Below are positions 5,986 to 28,046 of a stretch of DNA of 64,000 nucleotides, piece after piece. Position numbers and translations under genes: made by a program. How positions within the stretch are numbered: position 1 is the stretch's first letter; every line of letters begins with the position of its first letter. The notes under the pieces were generated by a model. That model made no database searches. It had not been told where the DNA came from and saw only the letters and a list, made by a program, of their open reading frames with translations. The stretch is from Psychrobacillus soli (lineage in GTDB: Bacteria > Bacillota > Bacilli > Bacillales_A > Planococcaceae), in assembly GCF_006861775.1 (NCBI RefSeq), contig NZ_VDGG01000007.1:1-64000 (forward strand), read 5' to 3'.

Positions 5986-6025
5986 GAAAACACCCTTTCC
6001 TCAGTTAGGAAAGGGTGTTTTCGTT
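5986..6025. terminator. second strong hairpin in the spxH-pepF gap
   Basis: GAAAACACCCTTTCCT and AGGAAAGGGTGTTTTC form a 16-bp stem around a 5-nt loop, followed by GTTTT on the plus strand. No gene lies between this hairpin and the spxH terminator, so it is either a backup terminator or the end of a small RNA. Confidence 0.6.
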
Positions 6026-6080
6026 TTACAAAGGGGATGGGAGAAATGTTCACGTTCAAACAAAGGGGTGTATGTTATCT

Positions 6081-6096
6081 TGTGATTTATTTCACA
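6081..6096. promoter_or_regulatory. Fnr/Crp- or Rex-like palindromic site
   Basis: TGTGATTTATTTCACA is an exact TGTGA-N6-TCACA palindrome, the half-site pattern of Crp/Fnr-family regulators, and is also close to Rex sites (TTGTGA-N6-TCACAA). It lies in the gap between two terminators, and the nearest genes point toward it. The rest of 6026-6264 holds nothing I can call. Confidence 0.45.
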
Positions 6097-8196: not shown

Positions 8197-9351
8197 TCAC
8201 TTTGCAAGAAAATCACTATATAGCAACTCAACCATTTTGGAATTATTAAACTTGCTTCTATAAATCGATGTATCTGACTTTATGAGACATTGCTGAAGTA
8301 TAGACAAGTAGGATTGGACAGCTTCTAATTTGAATAGGGTCTGTGTAGAACCAATTGGACGATTAAGTAGGAATGATTTACAATGCGAACAATCGGCTTC
8401 CTCAAGAGGGATTTTTATCCGATTTAAATAGTCGATCCATTGTATTTGCCATTCAACGGCATGTACATGAAAAGATTCTGCATTGGGAGTAGGAATTCCT
8501 ATAAAAAAAGGAATTTCTTTTGGGGACAGACTCCATCTATAGCAAACTTGTAAAAACTGATTCTGGACTCCTTTTCTATTATAGAAATATAAGTTGCTTA
8601 TATGCTTAAAACGCTGCTTCCTATATATTCGTAAATACATTTCGTACTCTTTTTGGGATATTCGTTTGACGACTGCAAATGGCCATGATTGCTTTTCCAT
8701 CGGGAGCTTCTTTATTTTGACGATGTATTTATTCGATTGTATGTGAACTGGGTTGGAAATATAGTGAAAGAGCTTTGTTTGTGGACAGTAGGTGATGATC
8801 ATTTTCCCGTTTGTGGGGGTTTCCAGGAAAAATTGCTGACGAAATGCGGATAATTGCATGGTTCCTATTTCTTGTGGTGGGAACTCTGAAATAGATGGTG
8901 TCCTTAATATCCAAAGTGGGTCTATTTGTTGCTGTTTATAACCTATGTTACGACTTTCTATAGTAGTAGGTAAAATTTGGCTGCATTGATATTCGATAGC
9001 TACTTGGGAATATTTGTTGTTAACTAAAATATCCGGTCTTTGTTTTATCGTCCCGATGAATGGCTCTAGTTGAGGTATGCTATTATGTTGTAGGAAAAAT
9101 GCGTGCAATTGGAGTTTGCCATTTAGGTGATCTTCACTTTCACCTTCCGAAAAAGAATGAATGCATGCAGATTTTTGCCTATGAGCAAAATGTGGAATTT
9201 TAATTGGTCCGCTTCTCAATATTACTTCTTCGTTGCACTGAAGGCACTGAAACGTACTTTTTTGCTTTAAATTGTTTAAAAATTCTCGTGAATAGTTGGC
9301 AGATACGATAATTTCTCCTTGCTTTGTTATTGCTGTTAATATGATCATCAC
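8197..9351 (-). CDS. coiA: competence protein CoiA
   Basis: This 384-residue protein of the CoiA family is needed for efficient recombination of incoming DNA during transformation in Bacillus and Streptococcus. The N-terminus carries CLQCNEEV and IPHFAH, a small zinc-ribbon-like module. The middle holds a nuclease-like core, RPDILV followed by AIEYQCS, resembling restriction-endonuclease D...ExQ motifs. The start is GTG at 9351 or ATG at 9348, both close to the GAGG ribosome site. Its place between mecA and pepF is conserved. Whether the host is naturally competent cannot be judged here. Confidence 0.88.
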   Translation of the reverse strand: MMIILTAITKQGEIIVSANYSREFLNNLKQKSTFQCLQCNEEVILRSGPIKIPHFAHRQKSACIHSFSEGESEDHLNGKLQLHAFFLQHNSIPQLEPFIGTIKQRPDILVNNKYSQVAIEYQCSQILPTTIESRNIGYKQQQIDPLWILRTPSISEFPPQEIGTMQLSAFRQQFFLETPTNGKMIITYCPQTKLFHYISNPVHIQSNKYIVKIKKLPMEKQSWPFAVVKRISQKEYEMYLRIYRKQRFKHISNLYFYNRKGVQNQFLQVCYRWSLSPKEIPFFIGIPTPNAESFHVHAVEWQIQWIDYLNRIKIPLEEADCSHCKSFLLNRPIGSTQTLFKLEAVQSYLSILQQCLIKSDTSIYRSKFNNSKMVELLYSDFLAK

Positions 9352-9465
9352 CTCTACTCATAAATGTACGAATTTTCAGTGAAAAAATCAAGCAAAAAAA
9401 AACACGTGTTGATTAACCAAAAGTATCCAGTAAATTGATTATTAAGATTTTGATAAGCACTCTAT

Positions 9466-10071
9466 GTATAGGTGCTTTTGGAGTGCTTTGAACGGAACGA
9501 GATCTACACCATTACCGAGACTTCTTGATGCGTAGAGATGCGACAAAGTCGCATCCCTACGCATTTTTTCGCTAATCGTATGAGAGTCGTTCGTCCGTCG
9601 CTCTACAAAAACAAGGGTAATCAAAGTGCCAAAGCTTTTGGGAACGACAGAATAGCCACTTTCCTACTTAAATAAAAGCAGCCAAAGATGCAATTTTGGC
9701 TGCTCAGTCCTTCTCTATAGTATATCCACCTTTTCGATTGGAAGGAAGTGTCCCATTTCTACTTAGCATCACTATATTACCAGCATGAACTTTGCAAAAA
9801 ATAAGCAAGAAACACATGATAGAAAGCGATAAAGTGCCCGAAATTGCATCTTCTGGCACTTCCACTATGAATAGTAAGCTAGCTATTCTTTCATTTTCCA
9901 AAGCAATTGCCTTTTTCTTTTGAATGTTGTAGGTACGTGGCGGACAAATATCCACAACAAGATTATCGAAAATAGTGTAGCAGGAAGTGACGCAGTCACT
10001 TCCTGCTACACTTAGCCCTCGGTAATGATGTAGTGATCATTTCGTCCAAAACGATCCGAAAACGTACAAGT
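9466..10071. repeat. composite two-armed structured repeat, copy 1 (arms A and B)
   Basis: Arm A (about 9480-9721, minus) and arm B (about 9824-10071, plus) are diverged inverted copies around a centre of about 100 nt. Each arm has hairpin 1 with loop ATTGCATC (A 9678-9703, stem GCAGCCAAA; B 9834-9859, stem GTGCCCGAA/TTCTGGCAC). Each also has a long hairpin 2 (A 9528-9564; B 9974-10012, perfect 18-bp stem, loop GCA), and a conserved CTCGGTAATG flank. The reverse complement of the whole element, including its centre, aligns with 27588-28046. It fills most of the coiA-mecA gap. No protein-coding signal was seen. Confidence 0.7.
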
Positions 10072-10135
10072 GCAAAATGGGATCCTTACGCATTTCTTGT
10101 GAAATATTAATGGTGGGAATTGGTGAATCAACAAG

Positions 10136-10165
10136 CAAAAAAAAACCTTCTTTTTACAGAAGGTT
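10136..10165 (-). terminator. terminator of mecA, overlapping its stop
   Basis: AACCTTC (10144-10150) and GAAGGTT (10159-10165) pair, and nine or more T residues follow on the minus strand. The mecA stop codon begins inside the right arm. Confidence 0.85.
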
Positions 10166-10829
10166 AAAAGTGTTTGTTTAGTTCTAGGAATACATCATTT
10201 ACAATAATTTCTTTTCCATATTCTTGAATCATATGAATGGTAGTTTTTGTACTATTTGCAAATTCTGAAATAACACTGAGTGTATTTAATACATCTTCAA
10301 ATTCCGTTAAATCCGAATTAAAAATTACATGTAAATAATATTTTTCCTCATAATGATACAATGATGTTTGGAAATTTACTTTATCCCATTTCTTTGCTAG
10401 AACAAGTAAATCATCAAAATTCTCAAACATGAATGTGTATTCAGAAGGTATTTCCTCTCCATCATCCATGTAATGCGAAAAATCATCAAATTCGTGAGGT
10501 CCTATAGAACTGGAGACACCATTTTTAAAAATCTTGTTAGAAAGGTCATCCATTTCAAAATCATCTGATCGTTCTTCATGTTTCCCTATTTCCGTTCGAG
10601 TGACAATCACTTCCAAACCTTTTTCCATCGCATGAACTTGTATCCATAATGGACCATCTAATTCTTCAAAATGGTCATCATCGTGAACTTCATCCATCAT
10701 CTCCCAAAAAAGCTGCTCGCTCTTATCTTTGTTAAACCATATTTCATCTCGGCTGAAGCCTCTTTCTTCAATGTCGATGTATGAAATGTATACTTTGAAA
10801 GTGTTATCATTGATACGCTCGATATCCAT
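10164..10829 (-). CDS. mecA: ClpC adaptor protein MecA
   Basis: This 221-residue adaptor recruits substrates such as ComK to ClpCP and helps assemble the ClpC hexamer. The N-terminal substrate domain begins MDIERINDNTFKVYISYIDIEERGF, a near-universal MecA opening. It is followed by an acidic variable linker (about 85-130) and the C-terminal ClpC-binding domain (YTFMFENFDDLLVLAKKW onward). Length matches the family. It lies between spx and coiA as in B. subtilis, though the yjbE gene found there in B. subtilis is absent here. Its terminator overlaps the stop. Confidence 0.95.
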   Translation of the reverse strand: MDIERINDNTFKVYISYIDIEERGFSRDEIWFNKDKSEQLFWEMMDEVHDDDHFEELDGPLWIQVHAMEKGLEVIVTRTEIGKHEERSDDFEMDDLSNKIFKNGVSSSIGPHEFDDFSHYMDDGEEIPSEYTFMFENFDDLLVLAKKWDKVNFQTSLYHYEEKYYLHVIFNSDLTEFEDVLNTLSVISEFANSTKTTIHMIQEYGKEIIVNDVFLELNKHF

Positions 10830-19861: not shown

Positions 19862-21298
<1,437 letters not shown>

Positions 21299-27587: not shown

Positions 27588-28046
27588 TACTTGTATTTTT
27601 CGGTTCTCTTTGGACGAAATGATTGCTACACCATTATCTCCTAATATTAAGAGAGCTCGCGAAGATGCAATTTCGCTTGCACATTTTCTATCTTAAAGGG
27701 AGTTCCTTGCTTATTATTTTGCTAAGAAAACCTTGGATTAGTGATACTAACTAAAAAAGTGACATTTTTAAAAATAGGAAGGTGAAAAAGCAATAGAGAG
27801 GTGCTGCGCAGCCAAAATTGTATCTTTGGCTGCCTTTTAATGAAAAGGAAAGTGGCTATTCTCTCATTAACCTAAAGCTTTTGAATTTTGTTTAATTACG
27901 TGGTAGGAGTACGACGGACGAATGACAGTAACAAGATTATCGAAAAAAATAGAGGGGGAATGCAGCTTTGCCGCATCCCCCCTCTATTTTAAGTCTCGAT
28001 AAAGGTGTTACTAGACATTCAAGTCCAAAGTACTCCGAAGACGTGT
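27588..28046. repeat. composite two-armed structured repeat, copy 2 (arms D and C)
   Basis: Arm D (about 27588-27700, minus, shortened) and arm C (about 27792-28046, plus) flank a 90-nt centre. Hairpin 1 keeps the 8-nt loop: C 27808-27833 (stem GCAGCCAAA, loop ATTGTATC), D 27659-27676 (stem GCGAA, loop ATTGCATC). Hairpin 2 of arm C is 27946-27990, an 18-bp stem with one mismatch; T residues follow on the minus strand, where it could end fabF transcription. The copy is opposite in orientation to 9466-10071, and the centres also align (CTTGCTTATT and TAGTGAT..TAA). Confidence 0.7.

Follow-up and report, generated by a model that had tools for sequence, protein, structure and literature searches.

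The window analysed here, a stretch of 64,000 nucleotides of the Psychrobacillus soli genome, carries coiA (8197-9351) and mecA (10164-10829), both on the minus strand, and the gap between them is the site of four hairpins. An initial annotation described this gap as a composite inverted repeat at 9466-10071, and all four hairpins were found at the places it gave, but its limits were too narrow: an alignment of copies places the ends of the family well beyond them (left CACACGTGTTGATTAACCAA, right TTGGTTAATCAACAGACGTG), with the element spanning approximately 9403-10136 (ca. 730 bp) and the hairpins lying internal to terminal inverted repeats and duplicated target DNA. The left terminal inverted repeat, CACGTGTTGATTAACCAA (9403-9420, plus strand), matches the family end, which also forms one end of an IS4-family insertion sequence at a locus described below (L190). 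The right one, TTGGTGAATCAACA (10120-10133, minus strand), has altered outermost bases in the window copy, and for this reason its own target duplication is read from an A-run. The two flanking target copies (A9) are located at 9394-9402, within a 15-bp direct repeat (CAAGCAAAAAAAAAC, 9389-9403), and at 10137-10145, within the T-tract of the mecA terminator; the 15-bp repeat recurs at 10132-10146, and the empty sites of close relatives have a single copy of it.

Each half of the element is a palindrome in itself. Arm A (9456-9632, limits approximate, from the RNAalifold consensus on both strands) is a long imperfect palindrome around tip hairpin A (9528-9564, plus strand; 17 positions with one mismatch, spacer AAA), after which a T-run follows on the plus strand. 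Arm B (9905-10080, limits again approximate, from the RNAalifold consensus) is organised likewise around tip hairpin B (9974-10012, minus strand; 18 bp, spacer GCA), followed by ATTTTC on the minus strand. These tips agree with the stems of 17-18 bp annotated before. The two short central hairpins with their common loop are likewise present as annotated, i.e., hairpin 1a (9676-9705, loop GATGCAAT) and hairpin 1b (ca. 9832-9861, loop ATTGCATC, one mismatch), the two loops being reverse complements and hence one loop in inverted orientation. Two pairs have decayed in the window copy and are intact in most relatives. The fold energy (DNA parameters) is -116.8 kcal/mol vs. -72.0 +/- 5.8 in shuffles (z = -7.8), and in consensus folds of 42 and 69 copies (RNAalifold) a pair of short hairpins in the centre is accompanied by two long palindromic arms whose tips are near-perfect. 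The same window contains one more copy of the core (27589-28008, minus strand), which is older, truncated and without recognisable ends; its tip stem is very different yet still paired (TAGAGGGGGGATGCGGC / GCTGCATTCCCCCTCTA). Elsewhere, the window also harbors a T-box leader (19870-20084, plus strand, 141.6 bits) and the RsaE/RoxS small RNA (5988-6095, minus strand, 79.9 bits).

The element is multi-copy, so the annotated repeat does not fall for want of further copies, either in its own genome or in relatives. A search of the own genome with the element stretch returned 57 matching pieces, ca. 20 substantial copies among them. DNA matches were obtained in 26 of 261 Planococcaceae genomes and 3 of 19 genera, the third genus through the short hairpin only, and the main hosts are Psychrobacillus (the genus of Psychrobacillus lasiicapitis) and some Sporosarcina, two genomes of the latter reaching 89 and 83 end-motif matches (reversed control, none). 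An exact pattern scan of the named genomes gave matches for hairpin 1 and none for the arm motif, and plasmids and phages gave no match to the element. In the four closest Psychrobacillus genomes checked, the mecA-coiA gap is 70-74 bp long and lacks the element, compared with 816 bp here, the insertion point being the T-tract of the mecA terminator. Across the insertion sites of 67 elements and insertion sequences, target duplications roughly follow ATAWWWTAT, and a terminator-like hairpin occurs within 15 nt of 8 of the 67 sites and of 8 of 315 control positions. The Rfam family RF01690 (Bacillaceae-1 RNA) is found inside some element copies (L003, 2053-2120; L007, 1686-1752; by alignment also L005 and L008) at positions that differ from copy to copy, and therefore this described 'RNA' also behaves like an inserted repeat.

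The ends of the element tie it to the IS4 family. Its terminal repeats, CACACG TGTTGATTAACCA and CACGTC TGTTGATTAACCA, begin with CA and have T at position 9, and its target duplication is 9 bp; the IS4Sa subgroup is defined by CA------T ends, a length of 1150-1750 bp and a duplication of 8-10 bp (PMC2266710, De Palmenaer et al.). Among 49 inverted end pairs lying 150-1000 bp apart in loci from the own genome and its relatives, 28 had a 9-bp target duplication (flanking 9-mers at least 8/9 identical at the exact ends), as did 23 of 35 in a second set (51 of 84 for both sets together) vs. 7 of 2352 mismatched end combinations used as a control (0.3%). The family has what characterises a MITE, i.e., no transposase gene, terminal inverted repeats, a target duplication, many copies and an insertion that contrasts with an empty site in four close relatives; no reading frame is open across copies and the interior is non-coding. 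End repeats persist in shortened copies from which a tip, an arm or the centre is missing, and several of these copies also have 8-9/9 duplications (L014, L095, L096, L098). A 3.2-kb stretch between inverted ends (L059, G127) was considered as an autonomous element and rejected, as it consists of two separate partial copies flanking acetyltransferase-like and cupin-like genes (named by eye from their translations).

A search for DDE_Tnp_1 genes recovered a likely partner. In Sporosarcina sp. E16_8 (L148, G202), an insertion sequence of 1258 bp has the ends of the element, is duplicated for CCTTGATAG on both sides and encodes a 375-aa IS4 transposase (NF033592, 200.9 bits at a cut-off of 115; PF01609) with a DDE domain and the YREK motif at 277 (YKSRWAIETFFRWIK). 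Related transposases in other Planococcaceae genera reside in insertion sequences with the same ends and mostly 9/9 duplications, and in one of these insertion sequences (L190) the two ends differ, CACACG vs. CACGTC, just as they do in the Psychrobacillus elements. About 45 bp are common to insertion sequence and element at the ends, and the interiors have no convincing match. The genome of the window yielded no intact insertion sequence with these ends; a related transposase survives there as a degraded relic (G000:C48:5904-6362; internal stops, 42% identity), so that the active partner may have been lost from it. One insertion sequence copy (L184) has two identical right ends 169 bp apart (2702-2721 and 2871-2890), the outer of which is flanked by a matching 9-bp duplication. 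Since a clade of IS4-family insertion sequences of 1.25 kb in Planococcaceae agrees with the element in both ends and 9-bp duplication, we predict the latter to be a non-autonomous derivative of IS4 (IS4Sa type), a MITE whose non-coding core is palindromic, and we infer that an IS4Sa-type transposase moves it in trans. The annotation had been right in proposing a MITE-like mobile element.

Covariation of the stems, the other main claim of the annotation, is real and strongest in the two tips with their 3-nt spacers. Across a tree of 69 copies, double Watson-Crick changes occurred 36 times in tip A and 31 times in tip B vs. 0-2 in slid controls, and compensated cells reached 61 (tip A) and 79 (tip B) vs. 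at most 18 and 25, respectively, in shuffles; arms and ends changed mostly without compensation on the same tree. Where pairs broke, they did so about equally towards G.T (261) and A.C (281), and departures from the majority pair over all helices amounted to 337 G.U and 355 A.C, a count restricted to pairs predicted on both strands, a restriction that might conceal an excess of G.U. Counting instead the pairs of each strand's own fold that have a Watson-Crick majority gave 481 G.U and 453 A.C in one case and 399 and 454 in the other. On the outward strand, arms A and B together show a weak G.U excess by cells (293 vs. 216) and by events (171 vs. 136), on which we do not rely. RNase P of the same genus, used as a control with its Rfam structure and fixed orientation, departed 10 times to G.U and once to A.C, figures that rest on few changes. 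A DNA palindrome is indifferent to strand and an RNA is not. Covarying pairs are thus present in the element, and the tolerance of G.U on a transcribed strand that a structured non-coding RNA should exhibit was not found.

The spacers of the tips point in the same direction. At tip A, 29 copies have TTT and nine have the inverse, AAA, with seven parsimony changes on the tree and A/T intermediates in only six copies in all (ATT in three, TTA, ATA and AAT in one each), and tip B shows both GGA and TCC. The copies behind these spacer inversions and the compensated changes are 12-23% diverged. Polymerase template switching between inverted repeats is known to homogenise their arms and to invert their spacers (PMC8604942, PMC8794818). 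The equal departures to G.U and A.C, together with the repeated TTT/AAA inversion, argue for template switching at the DNA level rather than selection on RNA, and we consider it the likely cause of the compensated tips, as far as this can be judged from the pattern of changes. Selection for a folded RNA or single-stranded DNA, which had been read from the compensated stems, does not follow from them.

One part of the selection idea does stand, that concerning the hairpin-1 loops. In 43 copies that were not fetched by the loop pattern, no 14-mer of the element is better conserved than the 1a loop window (identity to the consensus, 0.97), 1b follows closely (0.95), and the terminal repeats are less conserved (0.84). 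Template switching does not explain this high conservation, which is unmatched elsewhere in the element and makes some selection on the loops, at the DNA or RNA level, likely. The hairpin-1 pattern itself was matched in 29 of 261 genomes, all within three genera (reversed control, 0). Half-units, i.e., a palindromic arm plus a hairpin with loop GATGCAAT, also exist without IS4 ends in Psychrobacillus and in the third genus (g12), at loci L022, L023, L025, L026, L027, L049, L050, L054 and L237-L256.

Taken together, we regard as very probable that the element is an IS4Sa-ended MITE whose core consists of two inverted half-units, with tips kept paired by template switching. Its ends would derive from IS4Sa-type insertion sequences resident in Planococcaceae, and its interior would comprise two inverted half-units, each made up of one short hairpin and a long arm that is palindromic and ends in a perfect tip hairpin. 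An IS4Sa-type transposase may recognise the ends in trans and, through a cut-and-paste mechanism, insert the element at AT-rich sites, in this case the T-tract of the mecA terminator. During replication, one arm of a short-spaced palindrome would occasionally be copied from the other, an event that could restore pairing, alter several pairs at once and sometimes flip the spacer.

Regarding the origin of the core, a tentative proposal is that the half-unit, whether selfish or functional, exists in its own right in three Planococcaceae genera, with its loop recognised by a protein or RNA partner, and that the IS4-ended element arose when two inverted half-units acquired the IS4 ends. Somewhat less probable, and in our opinion unlikely, is that selection maintains the palindromes for their structure as DNA, either cruciforms or binding sites of host proteins or the transposase, without any RNA. 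Equal departures to G.U and A.C fit a constraint on double-stranded DNA and the fixed hairpin-1 loop fits a recognised site, but a constraint on pairing does not predict the repeated inversion of tip spacers, and the shortened copies that retain ends and duplications indicate that transposition can do without the full structure, unless the deletions came later.

We give even less credence to the view that the transposon carries, as its core, a gene for a structured non-coding RNA, with 1a and 1b as kissing loops and stems kept by RNA selection. The two loops are fully complementary on one strand and are the best-conserved 14-mers, T-tracts follow both tips on the inward-reading strands, and hairpin 1 recurs in half-units of three genera. 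Loop position 4 is suggestive of joint change as well, since A at 1a is almost only opposite T at 1b (1a/1b pairs: GC 40, GT 15, AT 7, AC 1), but this table is biased by loci L099-L146, which were fetched by a pattern fixing the 1a loop, and copying between the inverted loops would produce the same table. Half-units have a single hairpin 1, so an intramolecular kiss cannot be general. Moreover, the parity of G.U and A.C is unlike RNase P, a promoter search found none above chance, and Rfam contains no match to the core at gathering score, the only hits being the nested RF01690 inserts and sub-threshold ones up to E = 5. We found no point in favour of a simple inverted duplication that decayed by chance in a single gap, and dozens of copies with common ends, target duplications and an empty site already refute it.

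The element thus belongs to a new family of IS4-type MITEs, unusual for its palindromic core, and of the two readings offered by the annotation the mobile one is well supported and the RNA one is not. It adds a high-copy transposon family of Psychrobacillus and Sporosarcina, of which the literature searched contains no description, together with its likely transposase. It is also a natural example of a repeat family in which strong base-pair covariation can develop with no RNA involved. Covariation alone is widely taken as evidence of structured RNA, and such repeat families can therefore be mistaken for RNA genes. A loop more conserved than the transposon's own ends is a testable question that this family raises.

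Among known systems, the IS4Sa subgroup (PMC2266710) resembles the element most directly in its CA------T ends, the 9-bp duplication and the ca. 45 bp of end sequence common to the 1.25-kb Planococcaceae members, but the element lacks a transposase gene, and the palindromic non-coding core in its interior is unrelated to theirs. Bacterial MITEs and mobile insertion cassettes (MICs) are likewise non-autonomous, bounded by IS ends and moved in trans (e.g., MIC231 with IS231 ends; PMC6542083); unlike them, the element is longer than most MITEs, carries non-coding sequence in place of the passenger gene that MICs hold between their IS ends, and has a core whose half-units exist independently of such ends. 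The bcr1-bcr18 repeats of the Bacillus cereus group (PMC6542083) are also dispersed non-coding repeats (100-400 bp) of related Firmicutes with mobile features, and their mobility is linked in that description to TTTAT motifs and possible site-specific recombination, in contrast to the IS4 ends and 9-bp duplication found here. REP elements, as defined in PMC3733652, are GTAG- or CGTC-tagged palindromes of 20-40 bp, and on that description an element of ca. 730 bp with IS4 ends and 9-bp duplications falls outside them. Returning to the MICs, the IS231 ends of MIC231 are themselves of the IS4 family. Finally, template-switch hairpins (PMC8794818) and spacer inversions (PMC8604942) have arms kept identical and spacers inverted, as in the tips of the element; those cases come from rRNA, microRNA and yeast coding genes, whereas here the same pattern is seen in a bacterial mobile element.
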